NCBI RefSeq assembly: GCF_024198235.1
Contig: NZ_JAKCFB010000035.1
Location: 1 to 64,000 of the forward strand
Length of the DNA: 64,000 bases
Reading direction: 5' to 3'
Source of the DNA: Myxococcus dinghuensis
GTDB taxonomy: Bacteria; Myxococcota; Myxococcia; Myxococcales; Myxococcaceae
The first letter of the stretch is position 1. Each line of letters begins with the position of its first letter. Positions 29,528 to 45,954 of the stretch are shown here, piece after piece. The translations under genes and the position numbers were made by a program. The notes beneath the pieces were generated by a model. That model saw only the letters and a program-made list of their open reading frames with translations, searched no databases and was not told where the DNA came from.

Positions 29528-32284
29528 CTAGCCCACCAGGGACGGCCAGTTCTTCCCGACCCAGGCGCGTTGCTCGACCTCCGCCCGCCAGTCCGCGTCG
29601 CTCCGGTCGATGCGACGTGACGTGGCGAACAGGGCCTCGAGCGCGGTGAGCATTCGTCGGGCGAAGGGGGCGTCCTCCACGAGCAGCAGCGCCTCGCTCT
29701 CCCAGTAGGCCGCCGTGACGTCGAGGTTGGCGCTGCCCAGCGCCACGGTCTGGTCGTCGCTGACGAGGATCTTCGCGTGGACGTGGGGGGACACGCGCTC
29801 GAGCTCGGGCTCCCAGCCGGGCCTGGGGGGCAGGGCGAACTCGTAGGCGATGCCGCCCTCGGCGATGACGGCGTCGAGCCGGCTGCGCACGTAGCGGTCC
29901 GCCACCTCGCGGATGGTGCCGCCGGGGAAGTAGGTCCGCGCCTGGCCGTGGTGGGGACGCACGCTCCCGAAGAGCACCTCCACGCGCACGCCCCGGTGGA
30001 GCGCGTCGACGAGCGCGTTCTGGAGCTCGAGCAGCAGCGGGAAGGTGTTCACGAGCACCAGCCGCGCGCGCGCCTGCCGGATGAGGGCCAGTTGGGTGTC
30101 GAGCGTGTGGGTGTCCCGCAGTCCGTCGTGCAGCGACAGCCGCGCGCGGAGTGTTCCTCGCGGCGTCGGCGCCGGGAGGTCGAAGGGCTCACCTCCGGCG
30201 CGGGTCCACTCGGCGAGGAACGACTGCTCCAGCGTGGCGACGAGGGGGCCCTCCACGCGGGCGCCACAGTCGAGCCACGGGATGTCCCGGTAGTGGGAGT
30301 CGCGACGGAGGCCCACCTCGTCGAAGCTGGTGTAGTAGGGCGCGCCCAGGTTGCGCCCGGTCACGACCGCCTGCGCCGAGTCGATGATGACGAGCTTGCG
30401 GTGGTTGCGCTGCTTCAGCTCCGCGAGGCTGGGGCCGCCGATGAGGGGCGCGATGGCGCGCACGTCGACCCCCGGCGCCCTCGCGAGCGAGACGAGCGCG
30501 GGGTTCAGGTCTCCGAACGAGTCGTGCCCGCTGTAGAGCGCATCCGCGAGGAAGCGGACGCGCACCCCGCGCGCCGCCGCGCGCTTCATCGCGTCCGTGA
30601 TTCGCGCGGTGACGGGGTCGTCCTCGACGATGTAGCACTGCCAATGGATGGTGGCGCGGGCCGCGTCGATGGCCGCGACCACCGCCTCCCGGGCGAGCGC
30701 GTTGTCGAGCTCGAAGTCGACGCCGTGGCCCTCCAGGCTCGGGGTGCAGCCCGCGAAGCGGAGCACGCGCGCCGCCGGGTCCGGCTCCTCGGGGACCGGG
30801 AGCGGCTCCAGCCGGGTGTCTCGTGGGAGGTCGAGCACCTCCCGAGGGGTCAGCGTGCGGATGAAGGGGTGGATGGGCTTCTGCTCGTCCTGGGTGACGA
30901 CCGCGCAGATGCCGACGCCCGCCGCCGCGAGCCGGGTGGCCACGCGCAGCAGCCGCAGTCCATCCACCTGTCGTGGCACGTCCTCCGCGCGCGCGTCGTC
31001 GAGCCAGGCCGAGGCGTCGAGCAGGTGGGGCCAGGACAGGGACGGGAGCCGCTCTCTCAGTCGTTCCCGATGCGACTCGAGGGACTCCGTGTCGCGCATC
31101 CGGACGAAGACGGGATGGAACGCCTCGCCGGCCAGGGCGTGCGCCGCTTCGAGCGGCTCCTCCTCCAGGGCGCTGTCGATGAGGACCAGCGGCTTTTCGG
31201 GCCGGAGGACATAGCAGGGGGCGAGCGCCCCGGACGCCATGGGGCCGGTGAACGAGACGGCCAATGCCTGCGCCCCGTGGGCATCCGCCAGGCACTCCGA
31301 GGGCAGGATGGCGATGCCGCGCGCATGGGGTTGCTCTCCCAGGCTCACGCCTTCCGCGAACATCGTCAGGGTGCCCATGTCCGGGACGGAGACGTGGGAC
31401 AGGAAGCCCACCTGCTCCACCGCGAAGCGTGGCGCGAGCGAGGGCGCGACGACGGAGTCCGAGACGACGAGCCGCTCCTCGAAGAAGGCCGTGCCGGACT
31501 GGGTCCGGGGCAGGAGCAGGATGGGGACGCGCGCCTCCTGGAGCGCCCTCGCTCCGAAGACCCCCATCATCAGCGCGGACACGTCCGCCACCGCGTCCAG
31601 CGGCGCGACGAGCAGGTCCGCGCCACAACGGAGCGCGGCGGTGTCGAACGCCTCCGCGCTCCCTCCGAGGGGAGACTCCGCGAGCGACTCGACCTGGAGG
31701 ACCTGGGGGATGCCCAGCGCCCGCGCGAGCGCCGGGAAGTCGTGGGCATCGTCGGGCGCGGCGCCCGTCGTGAGCGCGACGAGCTCCGAGGGCAGGGCAC
31801 ACTTCGACAGGAACGACGCGACCGAGCCCAGCCCCCGTCCGTCGGGAGCGACCGCGATCGCCATGCGCGACGGCGCGGACGGCGCGCGCTCGAAGGCCCG
31901 ACCGATGGAGAGCACCGGCAGGCGCTCGCGCAACGCGAGCCCGAGCATCGCGCCCACGCGGGCTCGGGGGGACGAGTCGAGCAGGGGGCCGAGGACCACC
32001 AGGTCCGCGCCATGGCGCGAGGCCGCGCGCAGCAGGTCCGCCGTGTCGAGGTGACTCTCCAGGACCTGGCTGACATGGGTGGCCGGGTGCCACGCGTGGA
32101 CTGCCTCCTGGAACCGGTCCAGCACGGTGAGGCTCGTGGGGGGCGGAGCGTCCAGCTCGCTGCGCTCCGGGACGAGCCCGTAGAGGTGCACGGCCTCCGG
32201 CGCGTCACAGAGCCGGCGCGCCGCGAGCACCACCTGCTCGGGCGCCGAGCCGGAGTCGAAGAGGATGAGCAGACGTCGGAACAT
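29528..32284 (-). CDS. Universal stress protein-phospholipase D fusion
   Basis: This 918-residue protein combines two modules. The N-terminal about 290 residues look like two UspA-type nucleotide-binding domains (FRRLLILFDSGSAPEQVVLA; ADLVVLGP; LLVAPLDAVADV). The C-terminal half is a phospholipase D/cardiolipin synthase unit with two HKD motifs, NHRKLVIID (His about 628) followed by GRN, and HAKILVSDD (His about 836) followed by GSANLD. PLD enzymes of this type make cardiolipin or transfer phosphatidyl groups. No signal peptide or membrane helix is obvious. The gene lies only 15 bp downstream of an MCE/Mla transporter operon, so it is likely co-transcribed with it. USP sensing could control the lipid enzyme. 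Confidence 0.85.
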   Translation of the reverse strand: MFRRLLILFDSGSAPEQVVLAARRLCDAPEAVHLYGLVPERSELDAPPPTSLTVLDRFQEAVHAWHPATHVSQVLESHLDTADLLRAASRHGADLVVLGPLLDSSPRARVGAMLGLALRERLPVLSIGRAFERAPSAPSRMAIAVAPDGRGLGSVASFLSKCALPSELVALTTGAAPDDAHDFPALARALGIPQVLQVESLAESPLGGSAEAFDTAALRCGADLLVAPLDAVADVSALMMGVFGARALQEARVPILLLPRTQSGTAFFEERLVVSDSVVAPSLAPRFAVEQVGFLSHVSVPDMGTLTMFAEGVSLGEQPHARGIAILPSECLADAHGAQALAVSFTGPMASGALAPCYVLRPEKPLVLIDSALEEEPLEAAHALAGEAFHPVFVRMRDTESLESHRERLRERLPSLSWPHLLDASAWLDDARAEDVPRQVDGLRLLRVATRLAAAGVGICAVVTQDEQKPIHPFIRTLTPREVLDLPRDTRLEPLPVPEEPDPAARVLRFAGCTPSLEGHGVDFELDNALAREAVVAAIDAARATIHWQCYIVEDDPVTARITDAMKRAAARGVRVRFLADALYSGHDSFGDLNPALVSLARAPGVDVRAIAPLIGGPSLAELKQRNHRKLVIIDSAQAVVTGRNLGAPYYTSFDEVGLRRDSHYRDIPWLDCGARVEGPLVATLEQSFLAEWTRAGGEPFDLPAPTPRGTLRARLSLHDGLRDTHTLDTQLALIRQARARLVLVNTFPLLLELQNALVDALHRGVRVEVLFGSVRPHHGQARTYFPGGTIREVADRYVRSRLDAVIAEGGIAYEFALPPRPGWEPELERVSPHVHAKILVSDDQTVALGSANLDVTAAYWESEALLLVEDAPFARRMLTALEALFATSRRIDRSDADWRAEVEQRAWVGKNWPSLVG

Positions 32285-32299: not shown

Positions 32300-33310
32300 T
32301 CAGTCCTTCCAGAGGATCTTCCACGGGTGCTTGCGCAGGTCCGTGGTGAGCGTTCGCAGCTCTTCATACAGCGTCGGGTCCTGGAGCGCCGCACCCACGG
32401 TGCCTTCGCCCGCCTCGATCTTCGCGAGGACCCGGTCCGCCCGCGCCGCGATGGACTCCAACTGCCCGGCCGCCGTGGTGACGTGCGCCAGGGCCGCCTT
32501 CACCCGCTGTCCATCCTCGGGGCCGAGCGGTCCCGTCACCGCGGCGAGCGCGTCCAGCGTCGTGCCCGCCGACTTCGTGAGCCGGGGCAGCTCCCCCCGG
32601 ATGAGCGTCGCGGAGGCCGCCGCGTCGTCCAGGAGTCGAGCCGCCTTGCCCCCGGGCTCGAAGGCCTCGCGCGTGAGCTGGGCCAGTCGCCGCAGGTCCT
32701 TCGACGCCGCGGCCAACTCGGACGCCAGCACCTTCACGTCGCCCTTGTTCTCCATCAGCACCTCGTCGAGCGTCTTCGTCAGCCGCGACACGTTCGACAC
32801 CAGGTTCGTCACCGCGTCCGGGTCCTTCTCGAGCATGCGCGACATCACGTCGACGAAGCGCGAGAGCTGCTCGGCGAGGATGTCCAGCCGCGGGGCGTCC
32901 GTGCCACGCACCGGCTCGTTCCTCGGCAGCGGTGTGGGGGCGTCACCCGGGTTGAGTTCCAGATAGGGCTCGCCGAGCAGGCCCACCGTCGCCACCGTCA
33001 CCCGCGCGTCGCTCCGCAGGGCCTCGAGCGCCTTGCCGGAGACGGCCAGTTCCATCTGGACGGGGAGGGGACGGCCGCTCGCGTCCCGCCGCTCCGGGAG
33101 CAGCGAGATGTGCTGGACCCGCCCCACCTGCACGCCGCCCAACTTCACGGGGGCGCCCTCCACGACATTGCCCGTGTGGCTGAAGTCCACCGCGAGGACG
33201 GGCGAGGAGCCCAGCGTCAGCTCGCCCATGAGCCACAGGAGGACGAGCACGCCCGCCACGGCCGCCAGCACCAGGGCGCCCACCTTCAGCTCCAGCCGTT
33301 GCTCATCCAT
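32300..33310 (-). CDS. MCE-domain (MlaD-like) substrate-binding protein
   Basis: This 336-residue protein is anchored by an N-terminal helix (VGALVLAAVAGVLVLLWLMG) and carries one MCE domain at about 37-115 (VDFSHTGNVVEGAPVKLGGV). A helical segment of about 180 residues follows. It ends with GEGTVGAALQDPTLYEELRT, typical of MlaD-like proteins. MCE proteins form hexameric rings or tubes that pass lipids between membranes. Here a single copy serves two permeases and two ATPases. Its start codon overlaps the end of the ATPase gene by 8 bp. Homologues contribute to outer-membrane lipid homeostasis or sterol/lipid uptake; direction of transport cannot be read from sequence. Confidence 0.93.
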   Translation of the reverse strand: MDEQRLELKVGALVLAAVAGVLVLLWLMGELTLGSSPVLAVDFSHTGNVVEGAPVKLGGVQVGRVQHISLLPERRDASGRPLPVQMELAVSGKALEALRSDARVTVATVGLLGEPYLELNPGDAPTPLPRNEPVRGTDAPRLDILAEQLSRFVDVMSRMLEKDPDAVTNLVSNVSRLTKTLDEVLMENKGDVKVLASELAAASKDLRRLAQLTREAFEPGGKAARLLDDAAASATLIRGELPRLTKSAGTTLDALAAVTGPLGPEDGQRVKAALAHVTTAAGQLESIAARADRVLAKIEAGEGTVGAALQDPTLYEELRTLTTDLRKHPWKILWKD

Positions 33311-34061
33311 CCGTCGCGCCCTCCATGAACGGCGCCGTCAACACCTTCAGCGAGGGCTCCGTGGACGTCAGGAACCCCTCCGGCGAACCCAGATACGCGC
33401 AGCGCCCCGCGGCCACCACCAGCACCCGGTCCGCCAGCGTCTTCAACTGTCGATAGTCGTGCGTCACCACCAGCCCACCGAGTCCCCGCATCTTCAACGA
33501 TGCCAGCACGTCCTCCACCTGCGCCGCCGCCCTCCGGTCCAGCCCGGTGGTCGGTTCGTCGAGCAGCAGATAGCGCGGCCCCAACACCAACGCCCGGGCG
33601 ATAGCCGTGCGCTTCTTGGCCCCCGGTCCGACCTCGGGCGGCAACCGGTCCGCCCACTCCAGCAACCCTACCTGCTCCAGGGCGGACTCCACTGCCTCGT
33701 TCGGGGCATGCGGATCCGCCAGCCGCACGTTCTCGCGCAGCGTGCGCCAGTCGAGCAGCGCGGGCCCCTGGACCAGGTACGGCGCCTGTCGGCGCAACCG
33801 GACCAGCTCCCGCTCCGGCAGCGTGTCCACCCGCGTACCCCACAGCTCCACGCTCCCTGTGTCCGGCCGCAGCAGGCCCACCGCCATCCGGCACAGCACG
33901 CTCTTGCCGGAGCCGCTCGCCCCCGCGACGAACGTCAGCTCCTTCGTGGACAGTCGCGCCGTCAGGCCATCCAACACCCGACGGCCCTCCTCGAACGCGA
34001 TGCGCACGTCCGTGAAGCCCAGGACGTCGTCGGTGGGCGGGGGCGGGCTCACGGGACTCAC
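33303..34061 (-). CDS. ABC ATPase 2 of MCE transporter (intact catalytic residues, degenerate signature)
   Basis: This 252-residue MlaF-like ATPase has Walker A GASGSGKS (47-54), a Q-loop, Walker B LLLDEP with catalytic Glu169, and H-loop His201 (VVTHDYRQ). The signature LSGGQ is replaced by VGPGA (144-148). The start is GTG 34061, overlapping the upstream permease stop as GTGA. On its own it should form a working half-site but cannot present a proper signature to a partner. It therefore fits as one subunit of a heterodimer with the ATPase encoded at 35607-36305, which has the mirror-image defects. A homodimer looks unlikely. Confidence 0.92.
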   Translation of the reverse strand: MSPVSPPPPTDDVLGFTDVRIAFEEGRRVLDGLTARLSTKELTFVAGASGSGKSVLCRMAVGLLRPDTGSVELWGTRVDTLPERELVRLRRQAPYLVQGPALLDWRTLRENVRLADPHAPNEAVESALEQVGLLEWADRLPPEVGPGAKKRTAIARALVLGPRYLLLDEPTTGLDRRAAAQVEDVLASLKMRGLGGLVVTHDYRQLKTLADRVLVVAAGRCAYLGSPEGFLTSTEPSLKVLTAPFMEGATDG

Positions 34062-34804
34062 AGGCGCAGCAGTTGGAAGGCGAGGGACACGGCGAAGTCG
34101 ATGAGCAGACACCCGAGGCTGGCGGCGACCACGCCGTCGGTGGTGGCCTCGCCCACGGCCTCCGCGCCGCCCCGCGCCCGGAGGCCGGCGACCGCCGCCG
34201 CGAGGGGGATGTAGACGCCGCAGGCCACGGCCTTGATGGCCGCGGCGAGCAGGTCCCAGACGTCGACGTAGCGCGGGTCCATGAAGGCGCGGCCATCCAC
34301 GCCGAACCCGAGCTGCGCCACCGTGGCCGCGGACAGCGTCGCGGCCACCGTGCCCAGCACGCACAGCAGCGGGACGCCGACCAGCCCCGCGACCACGCGC
34401 GGGGCCACGAGGTCCGCGAGGGGATCCCCCGCGGACATCTCCAGCGCCTCGAGCTGCTCGTTCACGCCCATGGTGGACAGCTCCGCCGCGTGGCCCGCGC
34501 CCGCGCGCGACGCGGTGAGCACCGCGGACACCACGGGGCCCAGCTCGCGGATGAGCAGCTCGAAGTAGGCGGGACCGAGCACCGCCACGTTCCCCACGAA
34601 CCTGCGCGCCTGGCTGTTCGCGATGGTGACGAGCACGGCGCCGAAGAAGGCCATGCCCGACAGGACCAGCCACACGCTGCGCCCACCCAGCTCGTGGAGC
34701 TGGACGAGGCACTCCCGCCAGCCGAGCCCCTCCCGCGCCGTGGCGCGCGTCGTGCGCGCCAAGAGCACCACCGGGGCGCCGAAGAAGGCCAGCGCGCGCT
34801 TCAT
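34058..34804 (-). CDS. MlaE-family permease 2
   Basis: This 248-residue integral membrane protein has about five hydrophobic segments. It has the MlaE signature around ELGPVVSAVLTASRAGAG, then EQLEALEMSAGDPLADLVAPRV. The coupling segment contacts the ATPases in MlaFE. It overlaps the first permease by ATGA (34801-34804) and the ATPase by GTGA. Compared with permease 1, the signature is partly diverged (SRAGAGHAAE versus ARIGARNAAE), so the two are not simple duplicates and probably form a heterodimer. Confidence 0.92.
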   Translation of the reverse strand: MKRALAFFGAPVVLLARTTRATAREGLGWRECLVQLHELGGRSVWLVLSGMAFFGAVLVTIANSQARRFVGNVAVLGPAYFELLIRELGPVVSAVLTASRAGAGHAAELSTMGVNEQLEALEMSAGDPLADLVAPRVVAGLVGVPLLCVLGTVAATLSAATVAQLGFGVDGRAFMDPRYVDVWDLLAAAIKAVACGVYIPLAAAVAGLRARGGAEAVGEATTDGVVAASLGCLLIDFAVSLAFQLLRL

Positions 34805-35610
34805 GACATCCACCCCGCGAGCGCGAGCGTGAGCAGGAGGTCGAGCACGAAGATGGCGGCGCAGCCCCGCACCACCGCGCTCGCCGCGGCCTGCCCCACC
34901 GCCCGGGCGCCGCCCCGCGCGGACAACCCCACCGCCGTGGACACCAGCGAGATGGCCAGTCCGAACGTCCCCACCTTCACCACGCCTCCCACCAGGTCCA
35001 GGGCTCCCAGCATCTGCGCGAACGTGCCGAAGAAGACGCGCAACGGCAGGTCGAGCATGAAGTACGCGGCGACGGCCTCGAACACGATGGCCACCAGGAA
35101 CGTGAAGGTGCTGAGCGCGAGCATGCTCAGCTCCATGGCCACCACGCGCGGGGCCACGAGGATGGCGAACGGATCCAACCCGATGCCGCGCAGCCCCTCG
35201 ATCTGCCCGCCGACCTGGAGGAGGGCGAGCTCCGCCGCGTTCCTCGCCCCGATGCGCGCGGACATGATGAGCCCCAGCAGCAGCGGGCCGAACTCCCACA
35301 GCACGCCGTAGCCCGCCGCCCAGCCGAGGAAGGCGCGCGCGCCGAAGCGCTGGATGTAGAGGCCGGACTGCAACACGACGATGACGCCCGCCAGCGCCGC
35401 GGTGGCCATCGCCAGCGGCACGGAGTCATAGCCGAACTGCACGAGCGCTCGGACCAGCTCCCTCCGCTCCAGTCGGGGAAGCCCCAACACGGTGCGCGCC
35501 GCGACCAGGGCGATGGCGCCCAGGCTCCGCGCCAGCTCCAACGTGAAGGCGCCCACGCCCCGCACGGGGCCCTCCACCAGCGCATGCGGGAGGCGGGAGT
35601 CGACGCTCAC
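34801..35610 (-). CDS. MlaE-family permease 1
   Basis: This 269-residue membrane protein matches the MlaE/YrbE permease family closely (EFGPLLLGLIMSARIGARN, then QIEGLRGIGLDPFAILVAPR). It has about five membrane helices. The start is GTG 35610, overlapping the ATPase 1 stop as GTGA. In the Mla system two MlaE copies form the channel through which lipid is extracted. Here a second distinct permease follows, so the channel is predicted to be heterodimeric, as for YrbEA/YrbEB of mycobacterial Mce operons. Confidence 0.94.
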   Translation of the reverse strand: MSVDSRLPHALVEGPVRGVGAFTLELARSLGAIALVAARTVLGLPRLERRELVRALVQFGYDSVPLAMATAALAGVIVVLQSGLYIQRFGARAFLGWAAGYGVLWEFGPLLLGLIMSARIGARNAAELALLQVGGQIEGLRGIGLDPFAILVAPRVVAMELSMLALSTFTFLVAIVFEAVAAYFMLDLPLRVFFGTFAQMLGALDLVGGVVKVGTFGLAISLVSTAVGLSARGGARAVGQAAASAVVRGCAAIFVLDLLLTLALAGWMS

Positions 35611-36305
35611 GGCCGCGCCCCGTCCTTCGCGCGCTCCAGCTCCGGCGCGGGCGGGCCGTCGTGCACCAGCCGCCCGTCGCGCAGGAACAGCCAGCGAGAC
35701 AGGGGCAGGTCCACGGGGGCCTCGGGCGCCGCGACCAGGAGCGTGCTGCCCCGGGAGACCTCGCTCAACACGCGCGCCACCTGTCGCGCGGTGCCGGGGT
35801 CCAGTCCCGCGAAGGGGTCATCCGCCAGCAGCACGGAGGGACGGGCCGCCAGCGCCCTGGCGAGCCCCGCGCGCTTCTTCATCCCCCCGGAGAGCCGCTC
35901 CGGGAGCGTGTCCGCCGCGTCCAGCAGTCCCACGGCGCGCAACACCTCGTCCGCGCGCGCCTCGGCCTCGGCGTCCGGGACGTGGCGACGGCGCAGGGGC
36001 AGCAACACGTTCTGTCGCACGGAGAGCGAGTCGAACAGCGCATCCGTCTGGAACACCATGCCGAACGCCGCTTGCCGCTCCCGGCGTTCGGTGGCCGACA
36101 GCCGCGAGACGTCCTCGCCGTTCCACAGGACCTGTCCGCCCTGGACCGGCACGAGCCCCGCGAGCGCTTTCAGGAGCGTGGTCTTCCCGGCGCCCGACCG
36201 CCCGAGCACCAGGGCCTGCGTGCCCGGTGGCAGCGCGCAGTCCACCCGCGCGAGCACCGTCCGCGTGCCGTATCGGACCGTCAGGCTCGTCGCGCGCAGA
36301 TCCAT
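35607..36305 (-). CDS. ABC ATPase 1 of MCE transporter (canonical signature, degenerate catalytic site)
   Basis: This 232-residue MlaF-like ATPase has Walker A GRSGAGKT (35-42) and a canonical signature LSGGM (138-142). Its Walker B reads LLADDP (159-164), so the catalytic Glu is replaced by Asp163. The usual H-loop His is missing: VVTHD becomes VAAPE at 191-195. Its own ATP site is therefore probably slow or dead. The partner ATPase 2 has the reverse pattern. The pair predicts one consensus and one degenerate ATP site, as known for heterodimeric ABC exporters. It is the first gene of the operon, with ATG at 36305; the promoter must lie in the 430-bp region shared with tolC. Confidence 0.93.
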   Translation of the reverse strand: MDLRATSLTVRYGTRTVLARVDCALPPGTQALVLGRSGAGKTTLLKALAGLVPVQGGQVLWNGEDVSRLSATERRERQAAFGMVFQTDALFDSLSVRQNVLLPLRRRHVPDAEAEARADEVLRAVGLLDAADTLPERLSGGMKKRAGLARALAARPSVLLADDPFAGLDPGTARQVARVLSEVSRGSTLLVAAPEAPVDLPLSRWLFLRDGRLVHDGPPAPELERAKDGARP

Positions 36306-36734
36306 GGGGCTCGCTCGTGCGATTCAGGGCGTCCAACCCCTTCGTCGTTCATCGGCAACAGCGCCAGACAGCCAGGACGGAAGGTGGCATCGGAGGGGGG
36401 AGCGTGCGGTCCTCGCGACGCGGCGGCGCAAGGCCGCTCCTCGCCGACCGCCAGGTCGACGCGCGGGCCCTGGAACGACCGCCTCAGGAATTTTCGCATC
36501 ATTCGTGCATTGACGGGCGCGCCGGCGCCATGCCCGGTCGGTTGCGAGGCGGAGGAGTCTCTTCACGGGTGGATGTGAAGCCTTCTCAGGATAGATCAGG
36601 TGGGCCTCGCAACCCCGGGTGCTGTCGGATGGAGCCGATACGACGTGCCAGACAGTCCCCGCAGTGCTGGCCGCGGTTTTGAAACGAGGGTGCTCCGACA
36701 CGCCCTCTCTGGCTCGAGCCTCCGCCGTTTGACC
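36306..36734. other. Divergent MCE operon / tolC intergenic region
   Basis: These 429 bp contain the promoters of both operons. A GC-rich palindromic patch (GGCGCGCCGGCGCC, near 36518) is visible. A slightly more AT-rich stretch at about 36575-36600 (CTTCTCAGGATAGATCAGG) could hold a -10 region. No known operator was recognised. Confidence 0.35.
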
Positions 36735-38189
36735 ATGCCCACCGTTCGATCCGTGCTCGCCGCGCCCCTCGGGGCGTGGATTGCCTTGACCCCGCTGGCC
36801 GCCTCCACGGCCCCCGCTGACGCCCCCGTGATGGCGCCGCTCGCCGCTGCGGATTCCGCACCCGCGGCTGCCGATTCCGCACGGAGCGCTGCGGATTCCG
36901 CACCCGACCCTTCACGGTCCGGGACCCCCGCGCCGACGGGGTCGGGAGCGGAGGCGCCCCTGACGCTGGAGCAGGCGGTGTCGTTCGCCGCCGAGCGCAA
37001 CGAGGCCGCCCTGGCGGCCCAGCAGCGCGCCCTGGCCGCGGATGCCCGGGTGTCCAGGGCCCGGGCCTTCTTCTTCCCGGAGCTGACGGCGACCGGCACG
37101 TATACGCGCCGCTCCAACCAGTCGACCCGGGAAGTAGGCGGCCAGCAGGTCGTCCTCCAGCGTTACAACGCCTTCGGCGCCAGCATCGTCGGCCGCTGGA
37201 CGCTCTTCGACGCCCGTGGCTTCCCGCTCTACAAGGCGGCGAAGCGCGAAGGGGAGGCCGCCGGGCTGGAGGCGGTCGAGGCCCGCCGGCAGATCGGCTT
37301 CGAGGCCGCCAACGCCTTCCTCATCACCCTGCAGGAGCAGCAGGTCTTCCAGGCCGCCGGGCAGCGCATCGCCTTCGCCCGTCAGTCGCTCGCGGATGCG
37401 CGGGCGCGCGCCAAGGCGGGGCTGGCGAGCACCAACGACGTCACGCGCGCGGAGGTCGAGCTGGCCACCGCCGAGGTGGACCTGACGGGCGCGCGCAACG
37501 CGGCGCAGACCAGCCGCCTGGAGCTCGGCTACCTGCTGGTGGAGCCGGTCGAGGCCGGGCTCGCCATGCCCCAGTCGCTGCTCGACGACGCGGCCCGTCC
37601 GCTCTCCTCGCACGACGCCCTGGCGCAGGGCGCGCTCGAGCGCCGTCCGGACATCCTCGCCTCGCACCTGCGGGTGCAGGCGCTGGAGGCCAACGCGCTG
37701 GAGCCGCTCGCGCGGCTGTTGCCCGTGCTGGGCGTCTCCGCCACCTACCGCCTCACCAACGAGGGCGGCCTGACGGGACGCACGGGGGATGGCTTCCTGG
37801 CCGCGGACCTGACGTGGAACCTCTTCGACGGCGGCGAACGCTACGCGGAGCGACACGAACGCGTGGCGCTGGCCCGCGCCGCCGCGCTGGAGCAGCAGGC
37901 GAGCACGCGGCGCGTGGATGTGGACATCCAGCGCGCGCGGGTGGCATTGGAGAACGCCCAGGCGGCGCTCTCCCAGAGTGAGTTGGCGGCCCGGGCGGCG
38001 CGGCAGAACGCCGACGAGCAGGGCATCCTCTACCGGCAGGGCCTCTCCACCGCGCTGACGCTGGCGGACGCGTCGCTGCGGATGTTCGAGGCGGACGTGG
38101 CCCTGGCCCGCAGCCGCTACTCGCTGGGAGTCGCCCTGTTGGGGCTCAGGGCTTCGGTCGGACTCGATCCGCTGGGGAAGGAACCGTGA
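36735..38189 (+). CDS. TolC-family outer-membrane efflux protein
   Basis: This 484-residue protein starts at ATG 36735 with a signal peptide (SVLAAPLGAWIALTPLAAS). A low-complexity stretch with three AADSA(P/R) repeats follows, then two OEP repeats. The first OEP repeat begins at LTLEQAVSFAAERNEAA. Long Ala-rich helices dominate, as expected for the periplasmic tunnel of TolC. The stop overlaps the GTG start of the adaptor gene (GTGA). It forms the outer-membrane exit of the RND pump encoded downstream. The substrate of the pump cannot be told from sequence. Confidence 0.93.
   Translation: MPTVRSVLAAPLGAWIALTPLAASTAPADAPVMAPLAAADSAPAAADSARSAADSAPDPSRSGTPAPTGSGAEAPLTLEQAVSFAAERNEAALAAQQRALAADARVSRARAFFFPELTATGTYTRRSNQSTREVGGQQVVLQRYNAFGASIVGRWTLFDARGFPLYKAAKREGEAAGLEAVEARRQIGFEAANAFLITLQEQQVFQAAGQRIAFARQSLADARARAKAGLASTNDVTRAEVELATAEVDLTGARNAAQTSRLELGYLLVEPVEAGLAMPQSLLDDAARPLSSHDALAQGALERRPDILASHLRVQALEANALEPLARLLPVLGVSATYRLTNEGGLTGRTGDGFLAADLTWNLFDGGERYAERHERVALARAAALEQQASTRRVDVDIQRARVALENAQAALSQSELAARAARQNADEQGILYRQGLSTALTLADASLRMFEADVALARSRYSLGVALLGLRASVGLDPLGKEP
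36846..36908 (+). repeat. Three 21-bp tandem repeats in the TolC N-terminus
   Basis: Copies start at 36846, 36867 and 36888, exactly 21 bp (7 codons) apart. Each begins GCTGCGGATTCCGCAC, with one mismatch in copy 2. Each encodes AADSAPx or AADSARx. The GCGGATTCCGC core is self-complementary around a central T. Such in-frame arrays may change copy number by slippage. Confidence 0.85.
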
Positions 38190-39400
38190 AGGCGATGCGA
38201 CGCGCAGGAACGCTGACCGTGGCCCTGGCCGTGCTGGCCATGGGTGGAGCTTGCAAGAAGGACGCGGAGGCGTCGAACGCGGGCGGTCCGCCCTCGGCGG
38301 CGCCTGGCGGTGGCCGAGGCGGAGGCGGGGGCCGTGGCCCCATCGCCTTCCCCGTGGAGGTCGCGCCGGTGGAGACGCGCGACGTGGAGTTCGTCGTCAA
38401 CGCCGTGGGCTCCGTGGAGGCCTTCGAGCGCGTGCAGATCACCGCGCGCGTGCCGGGCGCGGTGGAGCGCGTGCTCTTCATGGAGGGGCAGGCGGTGAAG
38501 AAGGGCGACGTGCTCGCGGAGATCGAACCGGCGCGCTACGCCATCGCCGTGCGCTCGGCCGAGGCCGCCTTCGCCAAGGCGCGCGCGTCGTTGGCCGAGG
38601 CGCAGGCGGGCTCCGAGCGCCGCGTCGCCGTCAACGAGGCGAGCCCGGGACTCCTGCCCGCGGAGCAGCTCGACACCTACCAGGCCCGCGCCCGCACCGC
38701 GGAGGCGGACGTGGCCGCGGCCCGGGCCAACCTGGACCAGGCGCAGCTCAACCAGCGCGACGCCTACGTGCGGGCGCCCATGGACGGCGTGCTCCAGACC
38801 CGCACGGTGCAGACGGGCCAGTACGTGCAGCCGGGCGTGGTGCTGGCCACGTTGCTGCGCCGCGACCCGCTGCTGCTCCGCTTCAACGTCCCGGAGGCCG
38901 ACACCGCGCGGCTGAAGCCGGGCATGCCCGCGCGCTTCACGGTGCCCTCGGAGACGGGGACGTTCACCGGCCGCATCACCCACGTGGCGCAGGCCGCGGA
39001 CGCGACCAGCCGCATGGTGCCCGTGACGGCGGAGGTCGCGGGCGAGGACGCCCACCGGCTGCGCGCTGGGGCCTTCGCCTCCGTGGCCGTCCCGGTCGAG
39101 ACGCGCGGGGGCAGCCCGGTGGTGCCGCAGACGGCGGTGCGTCCCAGCGAGCGGGGCTTCATCGCGTTCGTGGTGGACGGCGACAAGGCCCGCGAGCGCA
39201 TCCTGGAGCTGGGCATGCGCACGGCGGACGGCCGCGTCGAGGTGCGGGAGGGCCTGAAGCCCGGTGAGACGCTGGTGGTGCGCGGCGGCGAGGCCCTGCG
39301 CGACGGCGTCACGGTGAAGGTGGCCGAGGGCCGCAAGCCCGCGTTCACCGGTGAGCCGCGCGCGGAAGACGCGGGCGGCGCTGGAGGGGCCGGGCGATGA
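38186..39400 (+). CDS. RND efflux periplasmic adaptor (HlyD/AcrA family), lipoprotein
   Basis: This 404-residue membrane-fusion protein begins with a lipoprotein signal (LAVLAMGGAC) and a Gly/Arg-rich linker. The paired barrel-sandwich halves follow, with FERVQITARVPGAVERVLFMEG and YVRAPMDGVLQTR. The long coiled hairpin and beta-barrel domain are present at expected positions. It links TolC to the RND pump across the periplasm. GTG start overlaps tolC by GTGA, and its own stop overlaps the pump start by ATGA. Confidence 0.95.
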   Translation: MKAMRRAGTLTVALAVLAMGGACKKDAEASNAGGPPSAAPGGGRGGGGGRGPIAFPVEVAPVETRDVEFVVNAVGSVEAFERVQITARVPGAVERVLFMEGQAVKKGDVLAEIEPARYAIAVRSAEAAFAKARASLAEAQAGSERRVAVNEASPGLLPAEQLDTYQARARTAEADVAAARANLDQAQLNQRDAYVRAPMDGVLQTRTVQTGQYVQPGVVLATLLRRDPLLLRFNVPEADTARLKPGMPARFTVPSETGTFTGRITHVAQAADATSRMVPVTAEVAGEDAHRLRAGAFASVAVPVETRGGSPVVPQTAVRPSERGFIAFVVDGDKARERILELGMRTADGRVEVREGLKPGETLVVRGGEALRDGVTVKVAEGRKPAFTGEPRAEDAGGAGGAGR

Positions 39401-42400
39401 ACCTGACCGAGGCGTGCATCAAGAAGCCGGTCCTCGCGTGGATGATCATGGCGGCGACCATCGTCTTCGGACTGGTGGCGGCGCAGCGCATCGGCATCAG
39501 CCAGTTCCCGGACGTCGACTTCCCCACCATCAACATCAGCGTGTCGTGGGAGGGCGCCAACCCGGAGGCGGTGGAGAGCGACGTCATCGAGCCCATCGAG
39601 GAGGCCGTGACGCAGGTGGAGGGCGTGGTCTCCATCACCTCCACGGCCCGGCAGGGCGGCGCCAACATCACGGTGGAGCTGGACCTGGCGCGCAACGTCG
39701 ACATGGCGCTCCAGGACGTCCAGACGAAGGTGAGCCAGGCCCAGCGCCAGCTCCCCGAGGACATCGACCCGCCCGTCGTCACCAAGACGAACCCGGAGGA
39801 CCAGCCCATCATCCAGGTGGGCGTGTCCGGGCCCTTCTCCCAGCAGGTGGTGAGCGACTTCGCGCGCTACCGCGTCAAGGAGAAGCTCCAGACGGTGCCC
39901 GGCGTGGGCGAGGTGCAGATCGGCGGCTCGCTGGAGCGCAACGTCCGCATCTGGGTGGACGCGAAGAAGCTGGACGCCCACGCCCTCACCGTGACGGACG
40001 TCATCCAGGCGCTCCAGCGCGAACACGTGGAGCTGCCCGCGGGCCGCATCGAGACGGCGGGGCGCGAGGTCAACGTGCGCGTGCTGGGCGAGGCGCTCGA
40101 CCTGGAGACGCTGCGCAACATCGTCGTGCGCGAGCAGGAGGGCCAGCCCGTCTACCTGCACGACGTGGCGCTGGTGGAGGACGGCTTCGAGGACATCCGG
40201 CGCATGGCGCGCGTCAACGGCACGCCCGCGCAGGGCCTGGGCATCAAGAAGCAGCGCGGCGCCAACGCCGTCGCCGTGGCCAAGGGCGTGCGCGCGGAGC
40301 TGGTGCGCATCCAGAAGGAGGCCCCGGAGGGCATGGACGTGGCCGTGCGCTTCGACTCGACGCAGTTCATCGAGGAGAGCGTCCACGAGATCGAGTTCGA
40401 GCTGCTCCTCGCGTGCATCCTCACCGCGTTCGTGTGCTGGGTGTTCCTGGGCTCGTTGTCGAGCACGATGAACGTGGTGCTGGCCATCCCCATGTCGCTG
40501 CTGGGCACGGTGGCCGTCATCTACTTCCTGGGCTTCACGCTCAACACCTTCACGCTGCTGGGCCTGGCCCTGGCGGTGGGCATCGTCGTGGACGACGCCA
40601 TCATGGTGCTGGAGAACATCTTCCGGCACGCGGAGGAGGGGAAGGAGCGGGTGCGCGCCGCGCGCGAGGGTACGGCGGAGATCACCTTCGCCGCGCTGGC
40701 GGCGACCATGGCCGTCATCGCCATCTTCCTGCCCGTGGTGTTCATGAAGGGCATCATCGGCAAGTTCTTCCTCCAGTTCGGCGTCACGCTCTGCGTGGCG
40801 GTGCTCCTGTCCTACGTGGAGGCAATCACCCTGGCGCCGGCCCGCTGCGCGCAACTGCTCAAGACGTCGCGCGAGGGTCGCAGCAAGCTGGGCGTGTGGG
40901 TGGACCAGGGCTTCACCCGGCTGGAGCACGCCTATGGCCGGGCCCTGGGCTGGGGCCTGAAGCGCCCCTGGTGGGTGCTGTTCACGGCCGTGCTCATCCT
41001 CGGCGCCAGCGTCTTCGCCTTCCGCGCGCTGCCCGGTGAGTTCGTCCCGTCGCAGGACCAGAGCCGGCTGATGGTGCGCCTCCAGACGGCGGTGGGCAGC
41101 AGCCTGGAGGAGACCAACCGCCTGTTCCAGCGGGCGGAGGCGTTCGCCAGCTCGCGGCCGGAGGTGCAGAGCGTGTTCGCGGTGGTGGGCGGTGGCGGCG
41201 GCAACGCCAGCGTCAACGCGGGCATGATGATGCTGACGCTCAAGCCGCCCGAGGAGCGCATGCCCCAGGCCCAGTTCCAGCAGCTCCTGCGCAAGGAGCT
41301 GAACAGCTACCCGGGCCTGCGCGCGGTGGTCCAGGACCTGTCGCAGCAGGGCTTCACCGCGCAGCGCGGCTTCCCGGTGGAGTTCAGCGTCCGCGGCTCG
41401 GATTGGGACAAGCTGGTCTCCGCCAGCCAGGAGATGCGCGAGAAGCTCCAGGCCAGCGGCAAGGTGGTGGACCTGGACACGGACTACCAGCTGGGCATGC
41501 CGGAGTTGCGCATCACCCCGGACCGGGCCCGCGCGGCGGACCTGGGGGTGCCCATGCAGACGGTGGCCTCCACCATCAACGCGCTGATCGGCGGGGTGCG
41601 CGTGGGCAAGTACAGCACCGGGGGCCGGCGCATCGACGTGCGGCTGCGCCTGCTGGCGGACCAGCGCTCGCGCCCGGAGGACCTGTCGGTGTTGAAGGTC
41701 CGCACCGCGAACGGCGCGCTGGTGCCGCTGTCGTCGCTGGTGCTCCAGGAGGAGCGCCCGGCGCTCCAGGCCATCACCCGGAGGGATCGCGAGCGCGCCA
41801 TCAGCTTGTTCGCCAACGTGGCGCCCGGCGCCAGCCAGGAGGAGGCGCTGGCCACGGTGGAGCGGTTGGCGAAGGACCTGCCCGGCGGGGTGCGCGTGGT
41901 GGCCGGCGGGGCCAGCGTGGCGTTCCGTGACTCGATGAGCAGCCTGTTCTTCGCGCTCTTCCTCGGGATCGGAGTGGCCTACATGGTGCTCGGCGCGCAG
42001 TTCAACTCGTTCCTGCACCCGGTGACGGTGCTCACCATCCTCCCGTTGTCCGTGGCGGGCGCGGCGTTCGCCCTGTTGGGGACCGGGAGCACGCTGAACA
42101 TCTTCAGCATGATCGGCCTGTTGTTGCTGATGGGCATCGTGAAGAAGAACTCCATCATCCTGGTGGACTACGCGCTCCAGGAGCGGGAGCGGGGCGCGGA
42201 CGCGCTCACCGCCATGCTCCGCGCGGGGCCGGTGCGCCTGCGGCCCATCCTCATGACGTCCACCGCGACGATGATGGCGGCGGTGCCGGCCGCGCTGGCG
42301 CTGGGGGCGGGCTCGGAGACGCGCGCGCCCATGTCCATCGCGGTGCTCGGCGGCCTGTCCGTGTCCACGGTGCTCAGCCTGCTGGTCGTCCCCGCCTTCT

Positions 42401-42528
42401 ACGTGGTCGCCGACCGCATGAAGACGCGGCTCGGCAACCTGCGGGGCAAGCGCCCGGACGACGCACCGGGGACGCCGTCCCACCCGGCGCCGCACGACGA
42501 GGCGACACGGCCCGCCGCCCACGGGTAG
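39397..42528 (+). CDS. RND efflux pump (HAE1/AcrB-like)
   Basis: This 1043-residue inner-membrane pump has twelve predicted helices in two similar halves. The proton-relay aspartates are in GLALAVGIVVDDAIMVLENI. The pore domain starts NLTEACIKKPVLAWMIMAAT. Length and motifs fit the hydrophobe/amphiphile efflux-1 family, proton-driven export of drugs, detergents or lipid-like molecules. ATGA overlap couples it to the adaptor. The substrate is unknown; proximity to the MCE lipid transporter is suggestive only. Confidence 0.96.
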   Translation: MNLTEACIKKPVLAWMIMAATIVFGLVAAQRIGISQFPDVDFPTINISVSWEGANPEAVESDVIEPIEEAVTQVEGVVSITSTARQGGANITVELDLARNVDMALQDVQTKVSQAQRQLPEDIDPPVVTKTNPEDQPIIQVGVSGPFSQQVVSDFARYRVKEKLQTVPGVGEVQIGGSLERNVRIWVDAKKLDAHALTVTDVIQALQREHVELPAGRIETAGREVNVRVLGEALDLETLRNIVVREQEGQPVYLHDVALVEDGFEDIRRMARVNGTPAQGLGIKKQRGANAVAVAKGVRAELVRIQKEAPEGMDVAVRFDSTQFIEESVHEIEFELLLACILTAFVCWVFLGSLSSTMNVVLAIPMSLLGTVAVIYFLGFTLNTFTLLGLALAVGIVVDDAIMVLENIFRHAEEGKERVRAAREGTAEITFAALAATMAVIAIFLPVVFMKGIIGKFFLQFGVTLCVAVLLSYVEAITLAPARCAQLLKTSREGRSKLGVWVDQGFTRLEHAYGRALGWGLKRPWWVLFTAVLILGASVFAFRALPGEFVPSQDQSRLMVRLQTAVGSSLEETNRLFQRAEAFASSRPEVQSVFAVVGGGGGNASVNAGMMMLTLKPPEERMPQAQFQQLLRKELNSYPGLRAVVQDLSQQGFTAQRGFPVEFSVRGSDWDKLVSASQEMREKLQASGKVVDLDTDYQLGMPELRITPDRARAADLGVPMQTVASTINALIGGVRVGKYSTGGRRIDVRLRLLADQRSRPEDLSVLKVRTANGALVPLSSLVLQEERPALQAITRRDRERAISLFANVAPGASQEEALATVERLAKDLPGGVRVVAGGASVAFRDSMSSLFFALFLGIGVAYMVLGAQFNSFLHPVTVLTILPLSVAGAAFALLGTGSTLNIFSMIGLLLLMGIVKKNSIILVDYALQERERGADALTAMLRAGPVRLRPILMTSTATMMAAVPAALALGAGSETRAPMSIAVLGGLSVSTVLSLLVVPAFYVVADRMKTRLGNLRGKRPDDAPGTPSHPAPHDEATRPAAHG

Positions 42529-44259: not shown

Positions 44260-45954
44260 CTACCGCTTCTTGGTGGGCTTCTTCAGGAACCGGCTCAGCC
44301 GCACCTTGCCCAGGCCACGTCCGCCGAAGAGGTACCAGGTGATGGCGGCGCCGAAGAGGGCCGCCGCTCCCGCGATGCCCACCGCCCCCAGTACCGGAAT
44401 CCCGCTGTACATCCACGGCTTGGGCGCGAAGGAGATGAACGCGCCCACGATGAAGCCACACGCGCACAGGCCCAGGAAGGCGATCACCGCCGCGCTGCGC
44501 AGGTTCTCGTTGAGCTTCTCGAACTGGTCCGCGCGCACCGTCACGGTGAACTTGCCGGACTCCATGTCCAGGAGGATTTGCGACAGTTGCGTGGGCAGGT
44601 CCGCCGCCATGGACTGCAGCCGCAGCAGGGTGCGCATCAGCCCGCCCTGGAGCTGCGTGGGGTCGTAGCGCCCGGCGAGCAGCTCCTTGGCGTAGGGGAG
44701 CACCACCTCGATGATGTTCATCTCCGGGTAGAGGCTGCGCAGCATGCCCTCCGTCGACACGGAGGCGCGGCTGAGCAGGGCGTACTCCTTGGGGATGCGG
44801 ATGCGGTACTTCACCGCCAGGTCCAGCAGGTCCCGGAGCAGCGTGCGCGTGTCCACCTGGCCCAGCGTCGTGGGCAGGTGGTGTCCCAGGATGCTCTCGA
44901 TGTCGTTGCGGAACCCCACCAGGTTGGCGCGCGCGTCCGGGACGCCCATCCGGTAGAGGATGCGCGCCACGGAGTCGCTGTCCTTCAGCGCCACCGCGAG
45001 GCACAGCATCACCAGCGTCTCTTGCATGGGGCGCGTCAGCCGGCCCACCAGCCCGAAGTCGAGCAGCGCCAGCCGGTTGCCCTCCAGCAGCAGCAGGTTC
45101 CCCGGGTGGGGGTCGCCATGGAAGAGCCCGTCGTCGAAGAGCTGCCGGAAGCTCGCCTCCAGGATGTGGTGCGCGATGGTCTTCCGGTCCTCGTCGGAGA
45201 GCTGCGCCTGGTTGATCTTCACGCCCCGGATGAACTCCAGCGTGAGCACCGTGCGGCTGGAGAGCGTGGAGTAGACGCGAGGAATCACCAGGTAGGGCCG
45301 CTCGCGGTGGTTCTCCAGGAACGCGCGGATGTTGGTGGCCTCGTTGATGAAGTCCAGCTCCTCGTGGATGGCGCGGTCGAACTCGTCGACGATGCCCGTG
45401 GGCGTGTAGATGCCCGTCTCCTCCACGACGGCCTCGAGCAGCCGCGCCAGGTTGCGCAGCACCGCCAGGTCGGAGTCGATGCTCGAGGCGATGCCCGGCC
45501 GCTGCACCTTCACCACCACCTCGTCGCCCTCGAGCGTGACGGCGCGGTGCACCTGGGCGATGGACGCGGCGGCCAGCGGCGTCTCGTCGATGCTCGCGAA
45601 CAGCTCCGAGGACTCCTTGCCCAGCGAGTCGCGGATCTGCGCGTGCACCTGCTCCAGCGGGATGGGCTCCACGTGGTCCTGGAGCATCGACAGCTCGTCG
45701 ATGAACTCCGCCGGCAGCAGGTCCGCGCGCGTGGAGAGCACCTGGCCCAGCTTGATGAACGTGGGGCCCAGGTCGCTCAGCAGCATGCGGAAGCGCCGCG
45801 CCGTGGACGCGCGCTGCGCCTCCGGCGACACCTCCACCTTCTCCTTGCGCCCGAGGATGCGCCACAGCCCCGCGCGCTCCAGCACCTCGCCGAACCCATG
45901 GCGGGCCGCGATGACGGTGATCTGCCGCACACGGTTGAGGTCCTGGAGGATCAC
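44260..45954 (-). CDS. ABC1/UbiB/AarF atypical kinase
   Basis: This 564-residue UbiB-family protein has the family KxGQ motif (FIKLGQVLSTRADLLP), the alanine-rich loop (PLAAASIAQVHRA), the HGDPHPGNLLL catalytic segment and DFG. A pair of C-terminal membrane helices lies near 495-545. UbiB proteins bind ATP and coenzyme Q intermediates and act as ATPases in quinone biosynthesis; they are not ordinary protein kinases. No ubi genes are nearby, so a general lipid/quinone role is the most that can be said. It ends about 75 bp from the convergent terminator. Confidence 0.93.
   Translation of the reverse strand: MILQDLNRVRQITVIAARHGFGEVLERAGLWRILGRKEKVEVSPEAQRASTARRFRMLLSDLGPTFIKLGQVLSTRADLLPAEFIDELSMLQDHVEPIPLEQVHAQIRDSLGKESSELFASIDETPLAAASIAQVHRAVTLEGDEVVVKVQRPGIASSIDSDLAVLRNLARLLEAVVEETGIYTPTGIVDEFDRAIHEELDFINEATNIRAFLENHRERPYLVIPRVYSTLSSRTVLTLEFIRGVKINQAQLSDEDRKTIAHHILEASFRQLFDDGLFHGDPHPGNLLLLEGNRLALLDFGLVGRLTRPMQETLVMLCLAVALKDSDSVARILYRMGVPDARANLVGFRNDIESILGHHLPTTLGQVDTRTLLRDLLDLAVKYRIRIPKEYALLSRASVSTEGMLRSLYPEMNIIEVVLPYAKELLAGRYDPTQLQGGLMRTLLRLQSMAADLPTQLSQILLDMESGKFTVTVRADQFEKLNENLRSAAVIAFLGLCACGFIVGAFISFAPKPWMYSGIPVLGAVGIAGAAALFGAAITWYLFGGRGLGKVRLSRFLKKPTKKR

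Follow-up and report, generated by a model that had tools for sequence, protein, structure and literature searches.

Two ATPases with complementary motif losses in a putative Mla/Mce-type ABC transporter of the Myxococcota

The best comparisons for the locus described here come from two MCE lipid transporters and two other groups of ABC transporters. In Escherichia coli MlaFEDB, the ATPase MlaF and the permease MlaE each form a homodimer, and the complex also includes MlaB; MlaF variants K47A and E170Q do not rescue (PMC7367683). In mycobacterial Mce1, a homodimer of the ATPase MceG sits on a YrbE1A–YrbE1B permease heterodimer, and six different MCE proteins accompany it (PMC9882608). For Mla/Mce systems there is debate over the coupling between ATP hydrolysis and lipid movement and over its direction. 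Drug and peptide exporters provide known cases in which the two ATP sites are unequal. In such exporters with a single degenerate site (TM287/288, TAP1/2, TmrAB and human ABCC proteins), the signature is lost on one half and the other half has Asp for the catalytic Glu, often with a change in the H-loop. Human degenerate sites all have signature changes, with Glu to Asp the second commonest change (PMC7756269). In the Dpp/Opp group of peptide importers, each transporter has a pair of unlike ATPases and a pair of unlike permeases.

The window analysed here is a 64,000-nucleotide stretch of the Myxococcus dinghuensis genome (contig NZ_JAKCFB010000035.1). It contains an operon of five genes, all on the minus strand and overlapping by 4–8 nt, in the order A1-E1-E2-A2-MCE (Table 1). 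Pfam identifies two ABC_tran, two MlaE and one MlaD domain in the operon, every match above cut-off. Three criteria for an MCE ABC lipid transporter are met: (i) an MlaE-family permease, by E1 and E2; (ii) an MCE/MlaD-domain protein within the operon; and (iii) an ATPase of the MlaF/MceG group, with FtsE and MetN scoring close in the Foldseek comparison. From sequence alone, we infer that the product of the operon is a type VIII (Mla/Mce-type) MCE lipid transporter; lipid movement itself is also an inference. Two further MlaE loci lie on other contigs of the same genome, and their adjoining ATPases have intact motifs.

Table 1. Positions of the operon genes, diagnostic ATPase motifs and neighbouring genes in the window
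Feature	Positions	Strand	Evidence or remark
A1, MlaF/MceG-type ATPase, intact signature, degenerate own catalytic side	35607-36305	-	ABC_tran Pfam, model
A1 LSGG intact, residues 138-141 (LSGGM 138-142)	35883-35894	-	codons read
A1 Asp163 in place of catalytic Glu	35817-35819	-	codon read; ADDP, after Walker-B Asp162
A1 H-loop position Pro194, not His	35724-35726	-	codon read; LLVAAPEAP
E1, MlaE-family permease	34801-35610	-	PF02405, 164 bits
E2, second distinct MlaE-family permease	34058-34804	-	PF02405, 159 bits
A2, MlaF-type ATPase, catalytic side intact, signature lost	33303-34061	-	ABC_tran Pfam, model
A2 VGPGA (144-148) in place of expected LSGGM	33618-33632	-	codons read
A2 catalytic Glu169 intact	33555-33557	-	codon read; LLLDEPTTGLD
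A2 H-loop His201 intact	33459-33461	-	codon read; VVTHD
MCE protein, MlaD domain 39-122 then long tail ending HPWKILWKD	32300-33310	-	PF02470, 48.5 bits; C-terminal PWK conserved
UbiB/ABC1 kinase-like gene	44260-45954	-	PF03109, 245 bits; ~8 kb upstream of A1
PLD-domain gene	29528-32284		
Divergent OEP-HlyD-RND efflux cassette	36726-42528		

The two ATPases are damaged in opposite ways. Their Walker A motifs are GRSGAGKT (A1) and GASGSGKS (A2), and the codons at the motif positions of both were checked by eye at the DNA level. The sound LSGG comes from A1, and the sound Walker, Q-loop and H-loop motifs come from A2; the reverse combination, of the A1 catalytic side with the A2 signature, is damaged. 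The single-chain models are well formed (pLDDT 91 for A1 and 89 for A2), with MceG (8fed) as the top Foldseek PDB match of A1 and E. coli MlaF (6xgz/6xbd) as those of A2. In these models the window A1 is without a C-terminal helix that A2 retains. An initial annotation had described two MlaF-like ATPases, two MlaE permeases and one MlaD in one operon, and had reported that A1 keeps LSGG with Asp163 for Glu and no H-loop His, and that A2 keeps Glu169 and His201 with its signature changed to VGPGA. Each of these claims held, as did its positions for the five reading frames. Its background statements, on mycobacterial Mce permeases and ATPase and on the same asymmetry in exporters, agree with PMC9882608 and PMC7756269, respectively.

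Like MlaFEDB, the system combines an ATPase of MlaF-type fold, MlaE-family permeases and an MCE protein, and MlaF structures are the best matches of A2, but two ATPases and two permeases are encoded here in place of the MlaF and MlaE homodimers. There is also no space for an mlaB gene between the overlapping operon genes, whereas MlaB is part of the E. coli complex; STAS genes elsewhere were outside the search. No match to PF04333 (MlaA) occurs anywhere in the genome, and two MlaC-family genes sit on other contigs. We therefore rejected the label of an Mla system in its strict E. coli meaning, which requires MlaA and MlaC partners and MlaB in the operon. The likeness to Mce1 lies in the inferred permease heterodimer, in an MCE ring with a helical tail and in MceG as the top match of A1, but Mce1 has a homodimeric ATPase and six different MCE proteins. 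The motif losses are those of the one-degenerate-site exporters; those belong to type I, however, whereas in this MCE system ATPases and permeases are separate subunits. Dpp shares the two-plus-two composition but differs in that a catalytic Glu is assigned to DppD and DppF alike, and both are proposed to hydrolyse ATP (PMC12136057). We found no description of an MCE system with a complementary ATPase pair in the literature searched, which mostly did not cover subscription papers or preprints and is not proof that none has been published. The operon appears to represent a novel form of Mla/Mce ABC transporter, with its assembly, substrate and direction inferred or open.

The complementary losses extend across the phylum. 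We surveyed 90 genomes of the phylum that carry both ATPases. The composite site built from the A2 Walker motifs and the A1 signature is intact in 89 of the 90 pairs, and the site built from the A1 Walker motifs and the A2 signature is damaged in all 90: the A2 signature is altered in 90/90 and A1 is without Glu and/or His in 89/90. The definition of a degenerate site, with all deviations on one composite site and the other at consensus, is thus met in 89/90 pairs. The exception at the consensus site, G110, has Thr for the Walker-A Lys and is a draft genome of 80% completeness. By protein, SGG is kept in 94/94 A1 sequences, in which the catalytic-Glu position is Asp in 81, Glu in 11 and Gly in 2 and the H-loop His is present in only four. 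Among 94 A2 sequences, all have a signature other than SGG and all keep the catalytic Glu, and 93 keep the His, the remaining one being a gap at a contig end (G016). Four pairs that came to light afterwards by way of the MCE protein (G071, G183, G185 and G186) all fit the pattern, and the seven A1 genes that are unlinked from the operon all retain [L/I]SGG and lack His. The pattern is more than chance: set against the 90 pairs, 23/23 ordinary MlaF-type ATPases sampled from this phylum keep all motifs. This control is partly circular, and the 90 pairs are not independent, 71 of them sharing one state (Asp, no His, GPG).

The trees indicate more than one route to this asymmetry. A1 and A2 form clades apart from the ordinary ATPases (100/98 and 100/99, respectively), and each remains a single group (SH-aLRT 99 and 99) in a second tree that omitted the motif columns and added 42 rows. 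In different lineages the A1 Glu is replaced by Asp or Gly and the His by Pro, Ser, Asn, Ala, Thr or Gly; the A2 signature occurs as GPG, GDG, SDG, GAG, SAG, GKG and others. On the second tree (53 A1 and 55 A2 rows), at least 5 changes are required in the Glu state, at least 3 in the His state and at least 14 in the signature, with zero changes at A2 Gln/Glu/His or A1 SGG. Lineages have arrived at the same asymmetry via different residues, and the complementary pattern is far older than the genus Myxococcus. The profile assignment of some deep ATPases rests on narrow margins.

An E2 orthologue is present in 92 of 195 genomes of the phylum (E ≤ 1e-45). Fourteen Myxococcaceae genomes (genera g30 and g32–g34, each at least 98% complete) have no E2 and no MCE protein of the operon type, and none has an A1 or A2 of the same type above the level of ordinary ATPases; E1 was outside this search. 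G191, a 100% complete genome, has E1-E2-A2-MCE with an A2 signature of LGPG, and two A1 alignments returned only ordinary ATPases there; its A2 must then function by itself, pair with an ordinary MlaF, or be inactive. In G171, an MCE protein of the operon type (189 bits) comes with ordinary ATPases only and no recognised A1 or A2. Some A1 proteins are less degenerate: G164 retains both Glu and His, and its site is therefore degenerate through the A2 signature only; His is kept with Gly or Asp for Glu in G168, G170 and G106, and with Asp for Glu in L271, L328 and G071. A scan of 84,980 species genomes with an MCE alignment gave 281 relatives. The best 80 carry titles from Myxococcota, Deltaproteobacteria or unplaced metagenome-assembled genomes, plus one Comamonas-named record that looks mislabelled. 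Among these 80 stretches, 17 are without an ATPase and 15 have A2 but no A1, and all of these were excluded from the pair counts. Only these 80 of the 281 were examined, and absence from other phyla is not demonstrated.

The most probable explanation by a wide margin is that A1 and A2 form an obligate heterodimer, in which one site is consensus and the other degenerate, and that it sits on an E1–E2 heterodimer. This assembly is inferred from sequence and has no physical evidence. Besides the motif survey, the co-loss in the 14 genomes and the match of both single-chain models to MlaF/MceG speak for it, and G191, G171, the less degenerate A1 proteins and the non-independence of the pairs speak against it. 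The A2 Walker motifs and A1 LSGG would form the composite site that hydrolyses ATP, and the A1 Walker A with the A2 VGPG would form one that retains ATP with slow turnover. By analogy with TAP, TM287/288 or CFTR, the ATPase pair may open and close asymmetrically round a semi-permanent ATP, each stroke shifting lipid between the E1–E2 cavity and the MCE ring with its periplasmic tail. The gene order suggests that E1 would dock A1 and E2 would dock A2. The initial annotation had proposed this geometry, with the A1 site degenerate and the A2 site at consensus, and it is supported, exactly this arrangement being conserved in 89/90 pairs. Its asymmetric MCE importer or exporter is likewise supported, with heterodimerisation and the choice between import and export still inference. 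Absence of the changes from orthologues, which it had named as grounds for refutation, was checked and did not refute it. It understated the age and spread of a pattern that is phylum-wide, and it did not foresee two things: unlinked A1 genes conform to the pattern as well, and A1 often has a UbiB-family gene beside it.

Other arrangements can be considered. A2 might form a homodimer that tolerates its odd signature, with A1 a regulatory ATP-binding subunit that joins only sometimes. In favour of this are G191, with A2 and no detectable A1, the several families in which A1 lies apart from E1-E2-A2 next to a UbiB-family gene, and the missing C-terminal helix of the window A1. Against it, LSGG is kept in 94/94 A1 proteins, which would be needless for a pure ATP sensor, and a normal signature never occurs in 94 A2 proteins; we regard this reading as very improbable. 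Still less credible, and practically ruled out, is a pair of alternative transporters that share the permeases and use A1 or A2 homodimers by condition. Two permeases and two ATPases are indeed encoded, and the genes are scattered in a few genomes, but in either homodimer both sites would be damaged, which is the case in 0/23 ordinary MlaF-type ATPases, and E2, MCE and both ATPase types are jointly absent in the 14 genomes described above. It is equally hard to maintain that one or both ATPases are decaying and that the pattern is drift from a single ancestor. The common state of 71/90 pairs would fit such drift, but across divergence as deep as the phylum the frames are open and Walker A is intact in nearly all rows, the losses of the two ATPases complement each other and have recurred through different residues, and A1 SGG and A2 Glu/His show no drift.

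The neighbourhood of the operon offers few constant companions. The PLD-domain gene begins 15 nt after the MCE gene, and adjoins the operon only in some Myxococcus-type loci and in no other genus, although the flanks of some loci are too short to judge; it was dropped as a clue to the substrate. The efflux cassette adjoins the operon in several Myxococcaceae genera, was not seen next to it outside that family, and is regarded as a neighbour only. The UbiB/ABC1 kinase-like gene of the window shares 47% identity with the G050 gene that is linked to A1 and nests among A1-linked genes, and we take it to be orthologous to the genes found immediately upstream of A1 in other lineages. Of 81 genomes with sufficient sequence, 26 have a UbiB gene no more than 1.5 kb upstream of A1; among the other 55 is G188, whose A1 is probably not a true A1. 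In several families, A1 is unlinked from E1-E2-A2 and is beside a UbiB-family gene instead. PF03109 scores merely 29 bits in G191, and the UbiB–A1 module is therefore apparently missing there as a whole. Despite the linkage in 26/81 genomes, the persistence of orthologues in genera without the transporter (G115, G133 and G137) led us to reject UbiB as an obligate part. It remains a candidate partner, with no evidence of joint action. A bolder reading, which we consider doubtful, is that the degenerate A1 belongs with the kinase-like protein to a regulatory module of the MCE lipid pump, in which the kinase-like protein gates or charges the degenerate site. The authors of a yeast study likened a possible accessory role of the UbiB protein Cqd1 to the Mla system (PMC10214851).

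For the obligate A1–A2 heterodimer, the interest lies in the sites themselves. In a symmetric homodimer the ATP sites are indistinguishable, whereas in the A1/A2 system they are labelled by nature, and single conservative changes (A2 E169Q versus A1 D163N) could show which site drives transport, in a genus that offers an experimentally tractable strain. The degenerate site, best studied in exporters, is now placed in a cell-envelope lipid transporter. The role of UbiB/COQ8-type proteins in lipid distribution is unexplained. If the UbiB link is functional, a kinase-like family that is widespread and whose function is unclear would be tied to lipid transport; if the regulatory module is real, it would let the transporter be switched or tuned, and would connect that UbiB/COQ8-type role to a bacterial lipid transporter.

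The operon encodes two MlaF-type ATPases (A1 and A2), two MlaE-family permeases (E1 and E2) and an MlaD-domain protein (MCE). All five proteins pass the curated Pfam cut-offs, A1 and A2 for ABC_tran, E1 and E2 for MlaE and the MCE protein for MlaD. None of the listed NCBIfam families (for either ATPase, the top 25 of 181) has its cut-off reached by the operon proteins, which are therefore relatives of the Mla parts rather than Mla proteins by NCBI's rules. The 10.4 Mb genome contains two further MlaE loci and two MlaC-family genes, the latter on contigs other than that of the window; a match to MlaA was found nowhere in the genome.

Features of the operon and its surroundings
Feature	Position	Strand	Remarks
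Operon, five ORFs	36305 to 32300	-	neighbours overlap by 4-8 nt; in order, A1 232 aa, E1 269 aa, E2 248 aa, A2 252 aa, MCE protein 336 aa
PLD-domain protein	29528-32284	-	918 aa; start 15 nt past the MCE gene
UbiB/ABC1 kinase-like orthologue	44260-45954	-	8 kb upstream of A1, same strand

A1 has an intact Walker A, the signature LSGGM and the Walker-B Asp162, with Asp163 at the catalytic position and an H-loop that lacks His. A2 has an intact Walker A, Gln, Glu169 and His201, and VGPGA replaces LSGGM. Because each site of an ABC dimer combines the Walker A/B motifs and the Q- and H-loops of one subunit with the signature of the other (PMC7756269), the A2-Walker/A1-signature site would be complete and the A1-Walker/A2-signature site would be damaged on both sides. 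The motif asymmetry reported in the initial annotation holds; that an A1–A2 pair would assemble, with one complete and one doubly damaged composite site, is inferred from sequence alone.

Within the genus of the window, A1 and A2 were each found in 27/27 genomes, the A2 of G016 being truncated by a contig end. Searches of 195 Myxococcota genomes (G numbers), together with stretches from part of those genomes, yielded a sorted set of 94 A1, 94 A2 and 23 ordinary MlaF-type ATPases, the last serving as a comparison set. The counts exclude four ATPases of doubtful type in which Glu and SGG are intact, and the A1 of G070, 0.9 bits closer to the ordinary profile, was assigned by hand and grouped with A1 in both trees. 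SGG is present in all 94 A1 sequences; their catalytic position is Asp in 81, Glu in 11 and Gly in 2, and only 4/94 have the His. A2 has Glu and Gln in 94/94, His in 93 (with one gap) and the Walker-A Lys in 92 (with one Thr and one gap), and its signature is SGG in 0/94: the Ser is gone in 87, and in the other 7 it is present with a later Gly altered. All nine positions are intact in 23/23 ordinary ATPases. This control is partly circular, as 20 seeds of its own profile were chosen with their motifs already known, most of them also for adjoining ordinary MlaE or MCE genes. Among the 90 genomes with both ATPases, the consensus site is intact in 89 (gaps in G016 and G043 being scored as intact), the A2 signature is altered in 90, and A1 has lost Glu and/or His in 89. 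Genome counts are not independent events. The sorted set also includes A1 without A2 (G120, G124, G152 and G192) and A2 without A1 (G028, G122, G161 and G191); the cluster reaches a contig end in G120, G124, G122 and G192.

The MCE alignment was also used to scan 84,980 species genomes, and the best 80 of 281 related loci (L numbers) were considered. Both ATPases occur in 48 of the 80. A1 has SGG in 48/48 and has lost Glu and/or His in 47/48 (the exception is L251); A2 has Glu and His in 48/48, with an altered signature in 48/48. Seven of the 48 A1 rows score 0-13 bits higher against the ordinary profile and were assigned to A1 from their position; all seven group with A1 in a tree built without the motif columns. 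These loci partly coincide with the 90 genome pairs, and the two counts were not summed. At Kofleriaceae-, Nannocystineae- and similar loci, A1 is mostly DEP with Ser replacing His, and the A2 signature is mostly LGDG or LSDG. In the two genomes of family f20, the A1 catalytic Glu is Gly and the Q-loop Gln is Asp.

Six families have E1-E2-A2 without an adjoining A1 (G187, G189, G070, G190, G191 and G194), although in G070, G190 and G194 the contig starts near E1, so that adjacency remains possible. The pair model requires a partner for A2. An unlinked A1 was located for five of the six families, and likewise in G192 and G193; in all seven of these genes [L/I]SGG is present and His is absent. 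Genome searches found no A1 in G191. At L144 and G191, E1-E2-A2-MCE is present with an LGPG signature, in a genome given as 100% complete; searches gave neither A1 nor a strong UbiB-family gene. A separate MCE-protein search pointed to more genomes, from which 11 stretches were examined. An A2-type ATPase is found in five (G071 and G183-G186), whose A1, A2 and MCE sequences were absent from all profiles; the other six have an MCE gene without one, G180 having an ordinary ATPase. The five A2 proteins all combine DEP and His with an altered signature (LSAG, LAVA, LSPS, LSPS and LSPA), that of G185 being assigned from its position between E2 and MCE against a profile preference of 4 bits. A1 is visible in four (unlinked in G071), with LSGG in 4/4, Asp for Glu in 4/4 and His absent in 3/4.

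In 26/81 genomes with enough sequence, spanning 12 family codes, A1 is preceded within 1.5 kb, on its own strand, by a UbiB/ABC1 kinase-like gene. Such a gene adjoins 10 of 11 unlinked A1 genes (G045, G050, G054, G070, G071, G189, G190, G192, G193 and G194; the exception is G187). In many other Myxococcota, orthologues of the window's UbiB gene immediately precede A1; in the window, an OEP-HlyD-RND efflux cassette separates the two. In the seven Myxococcaceae genomes checked (G000, G011, G024, G033, G034, G036 and G117), the best PF03109 gene shares the strand of A1 and precedes it by 8-27 kb. The UbiB gene was rejected as an obligate part of the transporter, since genera that lack the transporter still have orthologues (G115, G133 and G137).

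The PLD-domain gene, whose product has an N-terminal half resembling universal-stress-protein repeats by eye, adjoins the operon in only part of the Myxococcus-type loci. In Archangium-type genomes (genus g8; L051, L106, L107 and L109) E1 and E2 are 1.3-3.4 kb apart, and in L051 the gap holds two ORFs, of 310 and 798 aa, with no relation to the operon. L253, L254, L267, L268, L310 and other loci of Kofleriaceae/Nannocystineae type have two adjoining MCE genes, the second with a lower score than the first; at some of these loci the MCE pair is on the opposite strand, convergent with A2. One or two small genes, MaoC-like by eye only, follow MCE at L141, L145 and L151, where A1 is unlinked. L322, from a record named Comamonas sp. 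KCTC 72670, has the operon at 76-85% identity, and the name seems wrong for the sequence.

In the tree, A1, A2 and the ordinary ATPases form three groups (support 100/98, 100/99 and 98/92). A quick-method tree without the motif columns and with 42 more rows still recovers A1 (99) and A2 (99) as single groups, with 86 for the ordinary ATPases. No A2 with an unaltered signature was seen, and the A1 Glu and His show several changes of state, which suggests that the signature was lost first and the A1 catalytic side later; this order is a possible inference only. A set of 14 Myxococcaceae genomes from four genera lacks E2 together with the MCE protein and both types of ATPase (E1 was not separately searched). 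Confident single-chain models (pLDDT 89 for A2 and 91 for A1) give E. coli MlaF chains as the best PDB matches of A2 and MceG as that of A1, and show a C-terminal helix (236-249) in A2 that A1 lacks. E. coli MlaF has a C-terminal extension that grips the partner protomer in a handshake (PMC7367683). It is possible, by inference, that the A1–A2 asymmetry includes this contact.

The kinds of change in A1 and A2 are the same as those of human degenerate ABC sites, every one of which has signature changes; Glu to Asp ranks second in frequency, and H-loop changes often accompany it (PMC7756269). In the published MCE systems we have seen, the ATPase is of one kind only and forms a homodimer (MlaF or MceG), whereas the operon described here encodes two, and the literature searched gave no description of an MCE system with complementary ATPases. 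On this comparison, and as inferred from sequence only, the A1/A2 system would be a variant of the known MCE kind in which the transporter has a complementary two-ATPase design.
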